A DNA stretch of 23,086 bases from a virus. The DNA lies in the IMG/VR virus record IMGVR_UViG_3300030406_003078, positions 1-23,086 of that record, one strand, 5' to 3'. The notes beneath the pieces were generated by a model that made no database searches, had not been told where the DNA came from, and saw only the letters and a list, made by a program, of their open reading frames with translations. Numbering within the stretch: position 1 is the stretch's first letter; every line of letters starts with the position of its first letter. A program made the position numbers and the translations under genes. This document shows positions 46 to 12,642 of the stretch, in pieces.

Positions 46-193
46 CAATCTCTACCTTAATTTTACCAACTTGTGTAAACATTGTAGAATTATGTACTTG
101 GTTAAAAACATCTAACCACTCAGACCAACTAGCCTTTTTCAATTGCTGTAACGTCTTCGGACTCAACTTCAATCGTTTTGGCGTTGTAGCCAT
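38..193 (-). CDS. 51-aa hypothetical protein overlapping the 3' end of the small terminase
   Basis: An ATG at 193-191 opens a 51-codon frame beginning MATTPKRLKLSPKTL and ending in an acidic tail (KVEIDE). Its first 65 bases overlap the end of the terminase small subunit gene in another frame. The frame stays open upstream to 292, but a start there would overlap much more, so the ATG at 193 is preferred. No good Shine-Dalgarno is visible. The predicted product is basic at the N terminus and rich in Lys, Leu and Trp. It fills the space between small terminase and the next start and is coupled to it by an 8-base overlap. The family is not recognised. Confidence 0.5.
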   Translation of the reverse strand: MATTPKRLKLSPKTLQQLKKASWSEWLDVFNQVHNSTMFTQVGKIKVEIDE

Positions 194-659
194 CGATTTT
201 GTCCGATAGTTCTTTAAGCTTCGTTTCAAGTTGCTCACGTGACATACCCTCCAAACCACTAACTCGTACCTCTTTCCTATCAACATAAGCACCTGCTAAT
301 TGACCTGATCTATATTCAGCATTGATCGCAGCAGCATATTGTTTATCTTTCTCGGCCTTGTCAGAAATTCTTTCTAACCTTTTGTATCTTCTAAGGTTGT
401 CACTTTCATACTTTTTTACTTCTCTTTCAAAAAGTTTATCAAAGTATTTTGCAATATGTGGATTGTGCTTTCTAGATAACATTCTAGATGCAACAGATCC
501 ATAATCCTTCTCATTAGTACAAACATAACCTGCACGTTTAAGTGCTTCAGCTTGAGTTATTGATCCCCAATCTTTTACGTATATCTCTATAAACATTTTT
601 TGTTTAGGAGTGAGATCTAATTCTGTTCTATCTGTTTTTCTTTTTAAACCACCTGGCAT
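129..659 (-). CDS. phage terminase small subunit
   Basis: The 176-aa product has the layout of a phage small terminase, which binds the packaging site on concatemeric DNA and hands it to the large ATPase/nuclease subunit. The N-terminal part carries LTPKQKMFIEIYVKD (about residues 17-31) followed by a helix-turn-helix-like TQAEALKRAGY (35-45) and an AS(R)ML segment around 57-61, typical of Terminase_2/HTH-type small terminases. The middle is a charged helical oligomerisation region. The C-terminal part includes a short MSREQLETKLKEL helix. The start codon overlaps the stop of the upstream microgene (TAATG), so translation is probably coupled. Length is normal for the family. Family assignment is by motif and pattern recognition, not by alignment. 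Confidence 0.82.
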   Translation of the reverse strand: MPGGLKRKTDRTELDLTPKQKMFIEIYVKDWGSITQAEALKRAGYVCTNEKDYGSVASRMLSRKHNPHIAKYFDKLFEREVKKYESDNLRRYKRLERISDKAEKDKQYAAAINAEYRSGQLAGAYVDRKEVRVSGLEGMSREQLETKLKELSDKIDGYNAKTIEVESEDVTAIEKG

Positions 660-857: not shown

Positions 858-911
858 TATTTCACCAAAAAGTAATAGCCCCAAAAACTCCTGGTTGCGT
901 TCCCGCAAGAG

Positions 912-1018
912 TGGTGTATCCAAGATACACCATAGATACACCACGGATACACCATTAAAATTGACTAAAAGTGTTGGTATAATTGACTAATAGACGTTTA
1001 GATACACCAGATACACCA
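912..1018 (+). repeat. iteron-like cluster: six copies of GATACACCA
   Basis: Direct copies of GATACACCA start at 924, 935, 946, 1001 and 1010, and one inverted copy (TGGTGTATC) lies at 912-920. The first three direct copies repeat every 11 bp, placing them on nearly the same DNA face; the last two are immediately adjacent (9 bp). The inverted copy and the first direct copy are separated by three bases and form a perfect 9-bp hairpin. Arrays of this type are known binding sites for replication initiators (iterons) or repressors. One further isolated copy was noticed at 13796-13804 inside a coding region, probably by chance. Confidence 0.8.
961..993 (+). promoter_or_regulatory. paired TTGACTAA repeats flanking an extended -10 box
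   Basis: TTGACTAAAAG (961-971) and TTGACTAATAG (983-993) are 10/11 identical and start exactly 22 bp apart, about two helical turns. Between and overlapping them is TGGTATAAT (975-983), a textbook extended -10 element on the plus strand. The first TTGACT is too close (11 bp) to be its -35. The arrangement suggests a plus-strand promoter with operator sites, but no plus-strand gene follows before 3274, so any product would be an untranslated or antisense RNA. Confidence 0.4.
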
Positions 1019-2346: not shown

Positions 2347-2562
2347 TTATTTACCGTTGAGAAGCTTTTTACCCTCAGCCAATAAATTTTGTTTCATTTT
2401 GTCGTAGCTAATATTTTGTTTTTTAGCTATCTTTTTGACCTCATCATCTACTAATTTAGCAATCATATTGCCTGGCCTTCTAAATCCATTCTGTCCCATA
2501 GCTCTAATAATTGTATAAGACTCAATATCAACTGCACATGATTTCCATTTACTTATGTCCAT
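2347..2562 (-). CDS. 71-aa candidate ribbon-helix-helix (Arc/MetJ-type) regulator
   Basis: The start at 2562 has an AGGAGG five bases upstream. The protein fits the ribbon-helix-helix plan: a short strand (SCAVDIE, about residues 8-14), a first helix (SYTIIRAMGQNGF, 15-27), a turn with RRPG (28-31), and a second helix (NMIAKLVDDEVKKIAKK, 32-48), then a Lys-rich tail. In that family the strands of a dimer insert into the DNA major groove and the protein usually represses its own or neighbouring promoters. It is the last gene of a four-gene operon and is followed directly by a strong terminator. The fold is inferred from the helix and turn pattern. Confidence 0.6.
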   Translation of the reverse strand: MDISKWKSCAVDIESYTIIRAMGQNGFRRPGNMIAKLVDDEVKKIAKKQNISYDKMKQNLLAEGKKLLNGK

Positions 2563-4013: not shown

Positions 4014-5585
4014 ATGTCTCAAGACAAAACTGAAACAATTGTTATTGTAGGTGGTGGTACTGCAGGATGGTCTACTGCACACAATTTTATTAACAAAACA
4101 AATCAAGACATTAAAATAATTTTAGTGGCTACACCAGAAATTCCTATAATAGGAGTTGGGGAAAGCACAACAGGACGTTTTAATGATTTAATAAATCTAC
4201 AAAACAATTTGACAGGTGTGAATGAAACAGAATTTTTAAAAGAAACTGAGTCTACATTTAAGTTAGGTATAAAACATAGTGATTGGCACACAGTTGGAAA
4301 ATCATTTTATTCTCCTATTGGAGATAATTATAATAATTTTTTTAAATATCCTCACATCAGTTATGATGATTTTAGAACATTTCATATAGCAGATGGTTTA
4401 GATTATGACAAAACTTTTCAATCAAGATTAATGGCCTTAAATAAACTACATTTTACTAATGATGATGAAAATATTTATACAATACAAAAAATTGTTTCTG
4501 AAATACCTGTGGCCTATCATTTGGACACTTTTAAGGTAGGTCAATATTTAAAGAAAAAAGCTATCAAAACAAACAAATGTAAATACATAGATGATCAAGT
4601 AGTTGGGTTTGAACAAGATGAAAATGGTTTTGTAAAACATTTAAAAACAAAATCAGGACAAAAAGTTGAGGGAGATTTATTTGTTGATTGCACAGGATTT
4701 GCAAGAGTATTAATAAATAATATTGAAGAAAATAAATGGGTATCCTACAAAGATAATTTACTTGTAGATAGTGCTTTAAATTTTAATTATGAATTAGGTG
4801 AGAATGAAGAAATTAGAAATTATACACATGCCTGGGCTCAAAAACATGGATGGTGTTGGGAAATACCTACTCAAACTAGAATGGGATGTGGATATGTTTT
4901 TAGCAGCAGATACACAGATTTTGACAAAGCATATGATGAAATTTCTAAAAAATTAAAAAATAGAAAATTAAAAATACAAAAAGAAATTAATTTTAACACT
5001 GGTAGGTTAGAAAAATTTTGGGTTAAAAATGTATTATCAACTGGTTTATCAAGTGCATTTATTGAACCACTTGAAGCTACATCCATTCATGCCACAATTA
5101 TGCAAATAAATCATTTTATAGAATATTATTTTAAGAATAATTTAAATTACAAATGTAATTTATTTCATGAACAATATAATTCAGAAATGACACAAATGTG
5201 GGATAACATTAAAGACTTTATTGTGTATCATTACATCACACCAAGAAAAGATTCTGAATTTTGGAAAGAATCTAGTGATTTAAAAAGACGGTCTTCAAGA
5301 TTAAAAAAATTAATGACTATGTGGTCTTACAAAATGCCAAGAGAAAATGATTATATCAATGATATTGGAAATAATTTTTATTATTTAGGTAATACATTAT
5401 GGTATCAGATAGCTATTGGAATGAAACTTTTAGATCCAAAACTAGCAAAAGCAGAACTACAAAATTATAGTTTATATGAACCCATGAAAAATTTTTATAA
5501 AAAATTAAATGATGATTTAGATAAAAGTATGCATCTATTTACTGAAACAAATAAATTCTATAAAAGCATTCAGTGTCGCAGCTAG
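4014..5585 (+). CDS. flavin-dependent (tryptophan-halogenase-type) halogenase
   Basis: The 523-aa protein has the full signature of FADH2-dependent halogenases, which make hypohalous acid at the flavin and pass it through a tunnel to a Lys that halogenates an electron-rich substrate. Visible are the dinucleotide-binding GGGTAGW (13-19), GVGES (47-51), K83 in FKLGIKHSDW at the position of the catalytic Lys79 of PrnA, FVDCTGF (223-229), the diagnostic WxWxIP motif as WCWEIP (280-285), and FIEPLEATS (349-357) with E354 matching the catalytic Glu of PrnA. Length is normal. A marine viral member, VirX1 from a cyanophage, is known to iodinate varied small aromatics. No flavin reductase is in the window, so FADH2 must come from the host. 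There is no Shine-Dalgarno, and a terminator-like hairpin sits just upstream. The gene is visibly more AT-rich than the structural genes. Confidence 0.9.
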   Translation: MSQDKTETIVIVGGGTAGWSTAHNFINKTNQDIKIILVATPEIPIIGVGESTTGRFNDLINLQNNLTGVNETEFLKETESTFKLGIKHSDWHTVGKSFYSPIGDNYNNFFKYPHISYDDFRTFHIADGLDYDKTFQSRLMALNKLHFTNDDENIYTIQKIVSEIPVAYHLDTFKVGQYLKKKAIKTNKCKYIDDQVVGFEQDENGFVKHLKTKSGQKVEGDLFVDCTGFARVLINNIEENKWVSYKDNLLVDSALNFNYELGENEEIRNYTHAWAQKHGWCWEIPTQTRMGCGYVFSSRYTDFDKAYDEISKKLKNRKLKIQKEINFNTGRLEKFWVKNVLSTGLSSAFIEPLEATSIHATIMQINHFIEYYFKNNLNYKCNLFHEQYNSEMTQMWDNIKDFIVYHYITPRKDSEFWKESSDLKRRSSRLKKLMTMWSYKMPRENDYINDIGNNFYYLGNTLWYQIAIGMKLLDPKLAKAELQNYSLYEPMKNFYKKLNDDLDKSMHLFTETNKFYKSIQCRS

Positions 5586-5650
5586 AATTGAACCCCTGCT
5601 TTCGTCAATCTTCTACTAATCAATAAAATAAAAAATGGAAAATTTGCTCG

Positions 5651-5681
5651 TGGTATAATAGTAAATAAAAAATAAAAGGAG
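5651..5681 (+). promoter_or_regulatory. extended -10 promoter and Shine-Dalgarno of the 43-aa gene
   Basis: TGGTATAAT (5651-5659) is an extended -10 box without a good -35, the same element seen at 975-983. It is followed 15 bases later by AAAAGGAG and then the ATG at 5687 with a spacer of about five bases. The interval 5586-5650 holds nothing else recognisable. Confidence 0.5.
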
Positions 5682-5686
5682 CAATT

Positions 5687-5818
5687 ATGGAATGGAGACA
5701 TCCAAGTTATTATGCAGAACTTAGAAGGCTGCGTAAGATCGAAGAAGAGAAGGAGTCGGAGAACAATGAGGACAAGGACTCTTCTGAACAATCTCAAGAT
5801 CCTCAACCTGAAAAGTAA
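5687..5818 (+). CDS. 43-aa protein with acidic disordered tail (competes with an antisense zinc-finger reading)
   Basis: The product starts MEWRHPSYYAELRRLRKIEE and continues as a Glu/Ser/Asp/Gln-rich tail, probably disordered. Support comes from a complete transcription unit: extended -10, strong Shine-Dalgarno, ORF, then a hairpin four bases after the stop. Against it, its codons end in G or C far more than is usual in this AT-rich genome. The minus strand of the same DNA can be read as a CxxC...CxxC protein following the polymerase gene. One of the two may be spurious. Confidence 0.5.
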   Translation: MEWRHPSYYAELRRLRKIEEEKESENNEDKDSSEQSQDPQPEK

Positions 5819-5927
5819 TCTTAGTGCCCTTGCATTCTTTGCAGGGGCTACTATTCCTTAGCTTCTCCCCAGGATCGTCCGAGTGCAATATCAACTTTGG
5901 AAGGTACTTTGAAATCTCCGATGGCAT
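5721..5927 (-). CDS. alternative: 68-aa small zinc-finger protein overlapping the polymerase 3' end
   Basis: A minus-strand frame from ATG 5927 overlaps the end of the DNA polymerase gene by 77 bases and then encodes SSPCKECKGTKITF followed after a short strand-like segment by SPCPHC. Two CxxC pairs separated by about 20 residues, the first followed by KG, resemble a zinc ribbon or DnaJ-type finger. AAGGAG lies about ten bases upstream of the ATG but also encodes polymerase residues. Its third codon positions are rich in T and look more native than those of the opposing 43-aa gene. Because both readings have support, this one is offered at low confidence. Confidence 0.3.
   Translation of the reverse strand: MPSEISKYLPKLILHSDDPGEKLRNSSPCKECKGTKITFQVEDLEIVQKSPCPHCSPTPSLLRSYAAF
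5823..5852. terminator. hairpin between convergent genes, possible bidirectional terminator
   Basis: GCCCTTGCA (5826-5834) pairs with TGCAGGGGC (5840-5848) with one G-T wobble around a TTCTT loop, extendable by AGT/ACT with one bulge. It lies exactly between the plus-strand stop (5818) and the polymerase stop (5853-5851). No clear T-run follows on either strand, so efficiency is uncertain. The palindrome could instead arise from two CxxC codon groups if the antisense zinc-finger reading is correct. Confidence 0.5.
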
Positions 5928-8686: not shown

Positions 8687-9304
8687 TTATATTTTTAATT
8701 TTGAAATTTCTGTGTCATCACCTAATAATCCTTTAACAAAAGTATTAAAAGCTAAACTTATTCTTAAATTATTACCAATTTTTTTAGGCACATTGTGTTT
8801 TAATCTAGAAGGAAACATTATTAAAACTCCTGTTTCTACAGGAAAATACCAACTTTCAGAATTAAATAAATTAAATTCTTTTTGACCTAAATGAAAAGGA
8901 TCGTCTATAGGATGATGAAAATAAATTTTATCTGTGTTTATATCTGCATTAAAATACAACACTCCAGAAACTATTGAATTTGGATGAAAGTGTTTATGAT
9001 GACTTTCTTCTTTTTTTGTATAATTTAACCATGATTGTGTAATATAAGGTGTAACTGTTTCTACTATAGATAAAATCTTATCATAATAATTTTTTACGTG
9101 AACATTTAAAATGTTTTTTAAGTTTTTAAATTCTGGCTCTTCAAGAACATATTTGTTAATACTTGTTTTATTTAAATAGTTTTCATTACATTCGTTTTTA
9201 ATTTTATTAACAAAAAATAACTCATCTTTTGTAAAATTTTTATTTAATGTATGCACGTAAATTGGTGTTGAAAAAATACTTTTTACTATAAAATCATCTT
9301 CCAT
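8687..9304 (-). CDS. 2OG-Fe(II) oxygenase superfamily protein (phage type with HxHPN motif)
   Basis: The 205-aa protein matches the phage and cyanophage oxygenase group with an HFHPNSIVSGVLYFNA strand (105-120), IYFHHP (127-132), FPSRLKHNVP (164-173, H170) and LRISLAFN (180-187, R181). These supply the metal ligands and the 2-oxoglutarate-binding Arg. The catalytic class is clear; substrates are unknown for nearly all viral members. It follows the 67-aa gene by three bases and precedes DUF3310. Like the second oxygenase it is very AT-rich. Two different oxygenases separated by a 249-bp gene suggest a shared modification task. Confidence 0.85.
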   Translation of the reverse strand: MEDDFIVKSIFSTPIYVHTLNKNFTKDELFFVNKIKNECNENYLNKTSINKYVLEEPEFKNLKNILNVHVKNYYDKILSIVETVTPYITQSWLNYTKKEESHHKHFHPNSIVSGVLYFNADINTDKIYFHHPIDDPFHLGQKEFNLFNSESWYFPVETGVLIMFPSRLKHNVPKKIGNNLRISLAFNTFVKGLLGDDTEISKLKI

Positions 9305-9307
9305 TTT

Positions 9308-9511
9308 TTATAATTTAAATGGTTGTAACGCTTTTAACTTTTCTTCTGCGTTCGCAATCTTTTCTATTAATTTATCTGCCTCATCTATATGCTGCGGATG
9401 CTCTCCTATCGCCACTGGTTTTTCTAAATAAATTTTAAGTGTTGCCTCTGCTTCAGAGATTTGAGCATTGTATCTATCTTCCAAAGCTTCTATAATTAAT
9501 TTTCTAAACAT
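9308..9511 (-). CDS. 67-aa conserved marine-phage helical protein
   Basis: The product starts MFRKLIIEALEDRYNAQISE, has a conserved-looking GEHPQHIDE in the centre and ends in a second helix (KLIEKIANAEEKLKAL). Both halves look like amphipathic helices that could pair as a helical hairpin. Proteins of this pattern are, as I remember them, common in T4-like and podovirus genomes of marine hosts, with no assigned function. It overlaps the helicase stop by 8 bases (ATGTTTAG), so it is translated with the helicase. Confidence 0.7.
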   Translation of the reverse strand: MFRKLIIEALEDRYNAQISEAEATLKIYLEKPVAIGEHPQHIDEADKLIEKIANAEEKLKALQPFKL

Positions 9512-11114
9512 AATTAGCCTCGTATTGTTTAAAATACTTTCCTAATGGAAAGTTGTATTGATGATAAGTACCTAACAAATGTAATGTTTGTTTGGATCTT
9601 GTTGCACCTGTATACCATACCCTAAGTTCTTTTACCTTATCTGCTAAATTTTTTTTATCAAAATGAGATGGAAAGTTACATTTACTAGCCAACACTACAT
9701 TATCTGCCTCCCCACCTTTTACCTGGTGTATCGTATCAATAATAATTTTTGGTGGTTGTGTTAGATCTACGCCTTCATTCATAAGTTTTTGAAAGTATTG
9801 TTTATCTTTATCTTTAAATTTTCTTTTAAATACCTGATTCCATGGACCTTTTTCATCTCGCATACCACACCTTAAATGTAATTCATCAAATGTAAACACT
9901 TGATTTGGGTGGGCAAAACTCCATTTTTTACTGTCAGATGACCGGTATCCGTGGTCTATGTTTAATAAATATTCATACATTGTTACAGCTTCTTCTCTAT
10001 TTATGCTGCCACCATCACATATTTTTTCCCAATGTTGTATTGCATAAAACTGATTAGGATCAAATGATTTATTATTTTTTTGATCTTGATAATACAATCC
10101 AAGATTCTTTGCTTCTGTTTGTAATTCTTTTTTTACATCATTTATTCTTGCAAGCACCATCCAACTACCATCCATATCCCAAGGCACTTTCTTCAAACCA
10201 TTCCATCTATACACTGCACCTTCTTTATCATTAGAATAAAATTCTTTTGGCACTCTGTTATCACCCATAGAATTTAATAAACATTTAGAAAAGAAATGTA
10301 TGTTTTTATTAAGTCTTACAGATTTTTTTAACACAAGTGATTTACCAGGAAACGTTTGAAACAAAGTTACATCAGCACCATTCCACTCATAGATTGCTTG
10401 GTCATCATCTCCTGCAATGTATACACGTTCTACACCTTCAGACATCTTAACTACCATGTCCCATTGTAAAGGTGTTAGATCCTGAGCTTCATCAACCATC
10501 AATACTTTGAAAGGCACAACTAATCCATCATCAATAAACTTTTGCACCATGTCTGTAAAATCTAATCTGTCTGGTGTCCGTTGTCCGTTTTCCAACTCCA
10601 TTGTTTTAAATTCTTCGTATCCATTAATAATAGATTTAAATTGCTGTAATCGTACAGCCTTTCTAGATTGTTGTTTGTATAGCCATACAGGATCAACTTT
10701 CATGTTTCTTGCCCTGTCATATATTTGTAGAGACCAGTTGTTATATACTTTTTGATCATCGTGGCCTTCTTTGTATTTAATTTTTATTGTACCGTACTGT
10801 GTGTGAAACATAAGCATGTCTGCTTTTGGATCTAGTACAGGTATCTCTGCAAACTGTTGTCTTGCTAATGAGTGAAGTGTTCTAAAATATTTAAATGCAT
10901 CCTCATCGTAACCCTTAAACTTTTGTCTAACTCTAGTTACACATTCGTTTACAGCTTTGTTTGTAAAAGATACGTAACATATCTCATCAGGAGAATAACC
11001 TCTTTCAAGATAACGTTTTACACGTTTCAAAAGGTTCTCTGTCTTTCCAGTGCCAGGTGGTCCAAAGATCTTAATTGTCTTCCCACGCAGCCTTTGCTTT
11101 AACGAATTTGACAT
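9504..11114 (-). CDS. SF1 (UvrD/Rep-like) DNA helicase
   Basis: The 536-aa ATPase, numbered from the chosen ATG, shows Walker A GPPGTGKT (18-25), motif Ia YVSFTNKAV, Walker B DEAQD (208-212), motif III GDDDQAIYEWNGA (235-247), and near the C terminus IHQVKGGEADNVVL and VWYTGATRSKQTL for motifs V and VI. These are UvrD-type 3'-5' helicase motifs. It is compact for the family and lacks most of the 1B/2B insertions. The ATG at 11114 is preferred over GTG at 11132, since neither has a good Shine-Dalgarno and ATG reduces overlap with the primase gene (44 instead of 62 bases). It probably unwinds the template for the family A polymerase. Confidence 0.9.
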   Translation of the reverse strand: MSNSLKQRLRGKTIKIFGPPGTGKTENLLKRVKRYLERGYSPDEICYVSFTNKAVNECVTRVRQKFKGYDEDAFKYFRTLHSLARQQFAEIPVLDPKADMLMFHTQYGTIKIKYKEGHDDQKVYNNWSLQIYDRARNMKVDPVWLYKQQSRKAVRLQQFKSIINGYEEFKTMELENGQRTPDRLDFTDMVQKFIDDGLVVPFKVLMVDEAQDLTPLQWDMVVKMSEGVERVYIAGDDDQAIYEWNGADVTLFQTFPGKSLVLKKSVRLNKNIHFFSKCLLNSMGDNRVPKEFYSNDKEGAVYRWNGLKKVPWDMDGSWMVLARINDVKKELQTEAKNLGLYYQDQKNNKSFDPNQFYAIQHWEKICDGGSINREEAVTMYEYLLNIDHGYRSSDSKKWSFAHPNQVFTFDELHLRCGMRDEKGPWNQVFKRKFKDKDKQYFQKLMNEGVDLTQPPKIIIDTIHQVKGGEADNVVLASKCNFPSHFDKKNLADKVKELRVWYTGATRSKQTLHLLGTYHQYNFPLGKYFKQYEANYV

Positions 11115-12642
11115 CTTTATTCTTATGCTCACTTTGTTTTGGTAAAGTCACAACCCAATGTCTAGATTGAATTCCTTTGAACTTAGCTTTGGGTTTAGCT
11201 CCACCTTGTTCTAAGAATCTTGTACATTCTTTTTCATTCCAATTGTAACTCATTTTTTTCATAAAAGCTCTAAACGTTTCAAGCTTAAATCTCATTTCTG
11301 TTTCATCACGCCATATATTACCACTATCTATTTGATCAAATTCTGTAGTATCTTCAACATCTTCTAAGAATCTTCCCATTCTAGAATTAAATACATCGCT
11401 ACTTTCTTCTCCTGCATCAAAACCTTCCATGTCTTGTTTGTTTGCAATCAATTCTTCAAGCCAATCTCTATATGGATCAGGATCTCTTTTGGTTGGTTTT
11501 AAAGCTCTCCAAACAATGTCAAAGTTTAAAAGTTGTTCTCCAAGTAATTGTTGCTGGTATAATTGTTTTGTTGAAAGTCTAATTGATTTACCTTGTATAG
11601 GCAGAATCCAATAAGGTTCAGGATATGAATTTACTTTAATAAGTTTACCAACTTCAGGTAAAGCTTCGTTTGCACCAATACCAAGTTTACGTTTTACACA
11701 TTCACTTGATACACAATGCATTCTAGCAATAGATGTTTTACACTTGTAAGCATATTCTTTGTTCTCAACACCTTTAAATATATTTTGTAATTCTTTTGGA
11801 TGTAACTTCTCACTACAAACCTTTGTCATCATCTCCCTTGTCCACTCTTCATACATGACAGGGTCAGGATTAATTTTCTTTGCTAAAACTGCAACGTTAA
11901 ACATTGCATCATTTCTACCTTCGCCTTTTTGTACTTTGTTTTTCATAAAATTTACTACACAAGGTGGGTAATCTTTTGTTTCATCGTCTTGGAATATTTT
12001 TAACTTTTTAAATTCATCAGGTGTAAGTCTATATTGTTTTACAAACTCATATAAGTTTTCTAGTTTTATTGAGTTACACAGATCATCCATTGCAACTCTA
12101 GTTGTCATATAAAATTTTTGATATGGTAAGTTTACAAAATTACCTTTTCTTTTTTCATCCCAGTTTTCAGGAGTAAGATCCACTTCATCTTGTGCAGGAA
12201 ATATATCTGTTGTAGTATCATTGATGCCTAAGTCTGATGCGATCTCAATTAATTTTTTACGCATTGAAGATGCAGCAACTACACCATCAATAAATAAAAT
12301 TAAATGGAGTCCGTTGGATTTTGATCTGAATGGTACGAGTGGGTATTTTCTTTTCCGTATAATCGATATAACTTCTTGATGCTGTATATTATAACGATCA
12401 ACATCGATGACCCCCCAACTGCATGTATTATCATCTCGAATGGGAACTGATCCATAGTAGGCTTCTCCTTTTAAATGTTGTTTCCAATGTTCAATTGTTA
12501 TTGGTTTAGGTTCAACCCAATGTTTGAATTCTGCCTTACCTTTAGAGTTTTTCTTACCCGTTGGTTTGGAAACACCAAAATATGTAGTAGAGCCCTGGAA
12601 GAGTTCTACAAACTCCTCCAGGGTTTTGTCAAGTAGGTCCAT
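11071..12642 (-). CDS. AEP-superfamily primase/primase-polymerase
   Basis: The 523-aa protein begins with an archaeo-eukaryotic primase fold: WGVIDVDRYN with D80 and D82 as metal ligands, and SKSNGLHLILFID with H113 for the triphosphate, followed by DIFPAQDEV. Residues 225-256 (YPPCVV, GEGRNDAMFNVAVLAKK) resemble a PriCT-type primase C-terminal domain. A Cys cluster (C301, C310, C315, ending KRKLGIG) looks like the short zinc motif seen in plasmid and phage primases. The C-terminal 170 residues are acidic then basic and are not recognised; no ATPase motif is present, unlike fused primase-helicases. The start lies one base after the stop of the 264-aa gene. It likely primes phage DNA synthesis beside the separate helicase. 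Confidence 0.85.
   Translation of the reverse strand: MDLLDKTLEEFVELFQGSTTYFGVSKPTGKKNSKGKAEFKHWVEPKPITIEHWKQHLKGEAYYGSVPIRDDNTCSWGVIDVDRYNIQHQEVISIIRKRKYPLVPFRSKSNGLHLILFIDGVVAASSMRKKLIEIASDLGINDTTTDIFPAQDEVDLTPENWDEKRKGNFVNLPYQKFYMTTRVAMDDLCNSIKLENLYEFVKQYRLTPDEFKKLKIFQDDETKDYPPCVVNFMKNKVQKGEGRNDAMFNVAVLAKKINPDPVMYEEWTREMMTKVCSEKLHPKELQNIFKGVENKEYAYKCKTSIARMHCVSSECVKRKLGIGANEALPEVGKLIKVNSYPEPYWILPIQGKSIRLSTKQLYQQQLLGEQLLNFDIVWRALKPTKRDPDPYRDWLEELIANKQDMEGFDAGEESSDVFNSRMGRFLEDVEDTTEFDQIDSGNIWRDETEMRFKLETFRAFMKKMSYNWNEKECTRFLEQGGAKPKAKFKGIQSRHWVVTLPKQSEHKNKDVKFVKAKAAWEDN

Follow-up and report, generated by a model that had tools for sequence, protein, structure and literature searches.

A probable replication origin in relatives of pelagiphage HTVC023P, with iterons that covary with the C-terminal wing of the phage primase

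The six-copy iteron array at positions 912 to 1018 most likely belongs to a phage replication origin, an element extending from 840 to 1080 whose iterons are, with good probability, bound and read by a winged helix of the primase. This reading is favored because the iteron word and the tip of the protein always change together (47 contigs). The array is conserved among relatives, two of its bases switch in a coordinated manner, and this switch covaries perfectly with residues of the primase only. The window, i.e., the whole stretch of 23,086 nucleotides that was analyzed, represents a 23-kb part of the genome of a SAR11-type ocean phage with kinship to pelagiphage HTVC023P; its DNA polymerase A (PolA) is 61.5% identical to that of Pelagibacter phage HTVC023P, and its small terminase subunit (TerS) about 50%. 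Read leftward, the genes are arranged as structural genes, exonuclease, gp33-like, gp34-like, primase, UvrD-type helicase, PolA, small genes, the array, a 59-aa ORF, and TerS. A tryptophan halogenase gene (4014-5585, plus strand; PF04820, E 3.8e-104) lies on the strand opposite to its neighbors, and a gene for a putative 2OG-Fe(II) oxygenase (8687-9304, minus strand; PF13759) is located amid the replication genes.

The original prediction, made from the window alone, described five direct copies and one inverted copy of GATACACCA within the 107 bp from 912 to 1018, with 11-bp steps for three copies and two copies abutting. Exact matches were found at all of these positions, and the coordinates agree with the spacing. 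The array, the element around it, and the adjacent terminase gene comprise the following features:

129-659, minus strand: small terminase subunit (TerS), neighbor of the array
840-857, no strand: outer inverted repeat, first arm, with palindromic CTATATAG core (repeat search, relatives)
898-908, minus strand: near-invariant CGTTCCCGCAA, TTGCGGGAACG on the minus strand, beside the inverted iteron (at least 95% conserved)
912-920, minus strand: inverted iteron copy (exact GATACACCA; kept in relatives)
924-932, plus strand: iteron copy of the 11-bp phased trio (exact GATACACCA)
935-943, plus strand: iteron copy of the 11-bp phased trio (exact GATACACCA)
946-954, plus strand: iteron copy of the 11-bp phased trio (exact GATACACCA)
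955-1000, no strand: AT-rich gap separating the two groups of iterons, putative unwinding element
1001-1009, plus strand: iteron copy of the abutting pair (exact GATACACCA)
1010-1018, plus strand: iteron copy of the abutting pair (exact GATACACCA)
1063-1080, no strand: outer inverted repeat, second arm, likewise with palindromic CTATATAG core (repeat search, relatives)

On the minus strand the iterons of the window read GGTGTATCT. Six of the eight exact matches to GATACACCA in the window fall within the 107 bp of the array, and at up to one mismatch the window contains 19 matches versus 3.7 ± 1.7 in shuffled sequences (maximum, 10). Folded as single-stranded DNA, the array is more strongly structured than its shuffles (z −2.9). 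The perfect 9-bp hairpin proposed between the inverted copy and its neighbor can indeed form, with a 3-base loop, but in the minimum-energy fold the partner of the inverted copy is instead the copy two positions away; because of this more distant pairing, the hairpin is given no special weight beyond the inverted orientation. No tRNA or Rfam RNA was found at the array site. The array had also been placed in the only long noncoding region, which is slightly overstated: no gap in the ORF list exceeds the segment from 839 to 1251 (413 bp), but that from 5586 to 5850 is also sparse.

The iterons sit inside a conserved element of approximately 240 bp (840-1080) that includes the AT-rich gap and the outer inverted repeats; these outer repeats, two repeats within the gap, and CGTTCCCGCAA at 898-908 were absent from the original prediction. 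In relatives, the gap has a mean GC content of 22.6% versus 36.7% for the element, and its two repeats of approximately 16 bp (956-971 and 978-993) are 22 bp apart. Both arms of the outer inverted repeat were present in 77 of 85 in-register relatives, mostly with 13 to 16 of 16 bases complementary; HTVC023P-type phages carry a different inverted repeat of approximately 20 bp at this location. Retrieval via TerS yielded 80 relatives with a TerS at least 89% identical, 49 of which possess an array with the offsets of the window, namely, an abutting pair, a 55-bp step, the 11-bp trio, and one inverted copy. The offsets are fixed at 0, 9, 64, 75, 86, and 97 (inverted) while the distance between array and TerS varies from 245 to 863 bp, and the array is therefore regarded as a separate unit. 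Between the candidate origin and TerS (659-838 and the equivalent region in relatives) lies a hotspot of gene exchange, where close relatives carry small genes that vary in kind, number, and length. In total, the element is rigidly kept in more than 100 distinct relatives (108 distinct element sequences), with one array per long contig tested, and the array is located upstream of TerS in every relative examined, HTVC023P-type phages included. A direct search with the array DNA gave no match in named phages.

Absence of the repeats from close relatives, named at the outset as an observation that would speak against the origin or operator reading, was not what we found; the repeats are kept, though with a coordinated base switch. 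The word of the window is missing in 31 of the 80 relatives, and the 26 of these with enough upstream sequence retain the frame with copies of GGTGTCCCT rather than GGTGTATCT. A scan based on the frame only returned 181 loci, 111 of type T1 (AT, as in the window) and 70 of type T2 (CC), and no other type, with some contigs represented twice. Among the complete arrays, 100 have AT in all six copies, 63 have CC in all six, and none mixes the two (some contigs were fetched twice); four arrays miss or vary one copy. The flanks of close T1 and T2 relatives are approximately 88% identical on both sides of the array, so the switch is not simply a large local replacement. Since two bases are switched in every copy, a sequence-specific reader is indicated. 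The TTGCGGGAACG stretch at 898-908 is the same in T1 and T2 arrays but differs in sequence in groups T1′ and T3, and some other protein may bind there. A search of 84,980 bacterial and archaeal genomes did not turn up the T1 array pattern.

For 18 phage genes, columns separating T1 from T2 were sought over up to 207 typed loci, including long contigs of both types; results for genes more than approximately 30 kb away and for genes not universal in the group rest on few contigs. Perfectly separating columns were obtained for the primase alone, at positions 486 (A/S in T1 versus K in T2), 489 (K versus Q), and 492 (Q versus D/S). They cluster near the C terminus, and the rule holds in 30 of 30 typed T1/T2 contigs. 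None of the remaining genes, including those for TerS, the RHH protein, the 140-aa protein, PolA, and both helicases, possesses such a column. The genes and segments concerned are as follows:

2347-2562, minus strand: RHH-like 71-aa protein (RHH assigned by eye from the sequence)
11071-12642, minus strand: archaeo-eukaryotic-type primase, proposed initiator reading the iterons (PF22548, phrog_21866, covariation)
11146-11316, minus strand: predicted C-terminal winged helix, residues 443 to 499 (AF2 models; weak winged-helix matches)
11161-11187, minus strand: predicted wing loop, residues 486 to 494, with type-specific A486, K489, and Q492 (column screen and AF2)

The primase had been proposed as a binder of the array together with the RHH protein and the 59-aa protein, and it is the only one of the three singled out by covariation; identical 59-aa sequences and three unchanged RHH sequences occur with both array types. 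The same TerS protein is likewise found with both types (L053 with T1; L054 and L055 with T2), its largest column separation being 0.45 over 102 distinct rows. Because identical proteins accompany both types, neither TerS nor the RHH protein reads the switched bases. The HTH-like 140-aa protein showed no separating column over 110 distinct rows. ORF family 34, located downstream of the array, at first gave a 1-NN accuracy of 1.0, yet it is represented by only 45 loci and is not universal. A ParB-like 262-aa protein is missing from the window and other genomes and showed no separation.

The primase matches PF22548 (E 4.4e-13; 49.8 bits, above the curated cutoff of 27) and phrog_21866 (E 1.1e-66). 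Residues D80, D82, and H113 are invariant in 28 relatives; from family knowledge, we take D80 and D82 to be the catalytic acidic pair and H113 the catalytic histidine. Pfam detected neither a helicase domain nor PriCT-1 in the 523-aa protein, the helicases being encoded by separate genes, and no Rep_3-type initiator was found among the proteins of the window, a genome fragment, scanned with Pfam. For the C terminus, AF2 predicts the order strand, helix, helix (470-479), strand (483-485), loop (486-494), and strand (495-499), i.e., a winged helix modeled with modest confidence (pLDDT 64 and 68). Structure comparison with the PDB returned generic winged helices only (IBP39, HSF, ETS, and Fur; Z up to 6), and these matches support the predicted fold class rather than any closer relationship. 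The P4 alpha origin-binding domain was not among the Foldseek/VIA matches listed, and a search of the PDB with the winged-helix sequence gave nothing meaningful.

The analysis of the wing was extended to 47 contigs with four array types, the added sets stemming from relatives of the mosaic contig G072, and residues 486 and 492 fit the array in 47 of 47. Specifically, A/S486 and Q492 accompany TAT arrays (25/25), K486 and D/S492 accompany TCC arrays (14/14), and K486 and N492 accompany both GGT/TCC arrays (7/7) and the single CTAGGAAA array (1/1). In the added sets, TAT arrays occur with an AKFQG(I/V)QARHW wing, GGT/TCC arrays with KKFQ(G/S)NNTRHW, and the CTAGGAAA array with KKFESINTRHW. Residue 489 is less likely to be decisive, since outside T1 and T2 a Q at this position also occurs with TAT. 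Contig G072 (L479, L480; approximately 15.3 to 16.4 kb) joins window-type replication genes to an HTVC023P-type array and TerS, and it may be either a natural recombinant or an assembly chimera; it fits the covariation rule in that its wing, KKFESINTRHW, is neither T1 nor T2.

On the best tree inferred with the C terminus left out, the state TAT versus other switches seven times, at least four of these on branches with good support, and the wing changes along with every switch; the DNA tree has five state changes, three of them on well-supported branches. A sign test over strictly independent pairs gave 4/4 (p 0.125), a comparison that is underpowered. As significance is not reached by the phylogenetic test on its own, the case depends on a combination of three findings, namely, the concordance, the clean control, and where the residues lie. 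In very close T1 and T2 primases, 5 of the 9 wing residues differ versus 17 of the first 420. Array and primase are approximately 8 to 10 kb apart, and the intervening genes show no association with the type, so that a joint transfer of the two as a single block is disfavored. How metagenome contigs have recombined is uncertain, however, and some, such as G072, may be chimeric.

We infer direct binding, melting, priming, and origin activity, the last from the layout, from analogy, and from the identity of the reader. In the proposed mechanism, the C-terminal winged helix of the primase would bind the six iterons of approximately 9 bp, with the wing (residues 486 to 494) reading the central bases of each. 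By binding to iterons spaced approximately one helical turn apart, several primase molecules would be lined up along the same side of the double helix; this would be followed by opening of the AT-rich gap, primer synthesis, and the start of replication by the phage helicases and PolA. Of the two roles first suggested, phage origin or master operator, the origin is the best-supported option, and the operator found no support. GC skew, suggested as a check, is confounded by gene direction and showed no turning point at the array; third-position skew gave no clear signal either.

That the primase binds the iterons as an accessory site (for replication control, as an enhancer, or for incompatibility-like titration), with initiation elsewhere, appears unlikely. 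Covariation indicates binding specificity only and not initiation, and P4 requires a second iteron region, crr, in addition to ori; however, none of five long contigs contained a second cluster of at least four GGTGNNNCT words within 110 bp, and an AT-rich gap, as would be expected for an origin, is present in the element. That the array is a packaging site (pac or cosB-like) to which the adjacently encoded TerS binds is quite improbable. The cos sites of lambda-like phages contain repeated TerS sites, and the constant position upstream of the TerS gene would suit this function, but the occurrence of one TerS protein with both iteron types, the lack of any TerS column separating them, and the location of the perfectly linked residues in the primase, approximately 10 kb off, speak against it.

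We regard it as distinctly improbable that the array serves as an operator at which a regulator of the phage, be it the RHH protein, the HTH-like 140-aa protein encoded next to the array, or some other protein, controls the leftward packaging genes. The array is located in the leader of the TerS transcript, and RHH proteins bind short phased repeats; against this, the three RHH sequences do not change with the array, the 140-aa protein has no separating column, and the genes after the array differ among relatives. A host-encoded reader differing between host lineages, with the primase motif tracking the host by chance, is very improbable. The covariation screen covered phage genes, which leaves room for such a reader, but the linked primase residues are confined to the predicted DNA-contacting loop and change in each of the four to seven switches, and the remaining replication genes of these phages show no such association with the type.

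If the primase-read origin is correct, it would provide a candidate origin and initiator for HTVC023P-type pelagiphages and their relatives, which are described as widespread but little known (PMC9599517). It would also predict which residues read which bases, open origin specificity, and possible exclusion among ocean phages that infect the same cell, to tests in vitro, connect an archaeo-eukaryotic-type primase that stands alone with an origin layout resembling that of P4, and offer a natural set of initiator-origin switches for studying the evolution of protein-DNA specificity. More generally, it would show that covariation between an array and distant genes in metagenome contigs can name a DNA-binding partner. 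A tentative interpretation, to which we give somewhat less than even weight, is that origin specificity is a fast-switching trait: the wing and all six iterons change together repeatedly, unlike the genes that lie between, as though the selective force were conflict with co-infecting phages, satellites, or origin-directed nucleases. Conflict with co-infecting elements as the cause of switching is a guess drawn from analogy.

Among named phages, those of the HTVC023P type share the genome layout around the array and carry an array of close geometry upstream of TerS, but differ in the iteron word (CTAGGAAA), in having degenerate copies, and in a far more divergent primase (about 30%); in HTVC023P, the CTAGGAAA array lies at approximately 11.7 kb of MN698239, and no mention of it was found in the passages of PMC9599517 that were searched. 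Other phages show other structures upstream of TerS. HTVC027P (L083:10253-11260) has a different array with CAAGC words in 7-bp steps and both orientations, and DSL-LC04 (L191:4101-4303) has a 36-nt inverted repeat, 83% complementary and 131 nt apart, which is perhaps a counterpart of the 840-1080 element. The upstream region of psg01 contains other repeat types.

The closest known arrangement is that of satellite phage P4, whose alpha protein binds type 1 repeats with a winged helix before unwinding and priming (PMC4234260). The P4 record annotates six 8-bp type 1 repeats at 9310-9413 (approximately 104 bp) in both orientations, inside GGTGAACAG words. Like the window array, P4 ori thus has six iterons of approximately 8 to 9 bp over approximately 105 bp in both orientations, and the two share a three-copy group (10- to 11-bp steps in P4), a single inverted copy, a stretch rich in AT, and two closely placed copies; the initiator, in the pelagiphages a proposed one, is a primase with a C-terminal winged helix, here predicted. 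The order of the iteron groups differs, however, and GGTGAACAG and the pelagiphage word GGTGTATCT have only the initial GGTG in common. P4 alpha is a bacterial-type primase fused to a helicase, whereas the pelagiphage primase is archaeo-eukaryotic-type and stand-alone. P4 has crr, whereas no crr-like second array was found here, and, unlike in P4, the iteron sequence switches within one phage group.

The ColE2 Rep protein is an archaeo-eukaryotic-type primase without helicase that recognizes and opens its origin (PMC5862659, PMC5304414). ColE2/ColE3 Rep resembles the pelagiphage primase in combining this catalytic type with a C-terminal HTH module, here a predicted winged helix, and no helicase domain; ColE2-type origins, however, are very small and without iteron arrays, in contrast to the six iterons in approximately 107 bp described here, and PriCT-1, which belongs to the ColE2-type Rep architecture, was not detected by Pfam in the pelagiphage primase. 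In the PLE satellites, the DNA-binding domain of the initiator RepA and the iterons covary and have been swapped several times, which is linked to an origin-directed nuclease, ICP1 Odn (PMC8263062). PLE exchange whole RepA_N domains and iterons of approximately 30 bp, whereas in the pelagiphages the changes affect a few residues of the wing and two or three bases in each iteron. The pelagiphage system would work like those of P4, ColE2, and PLE, yet it fails defining features of each.
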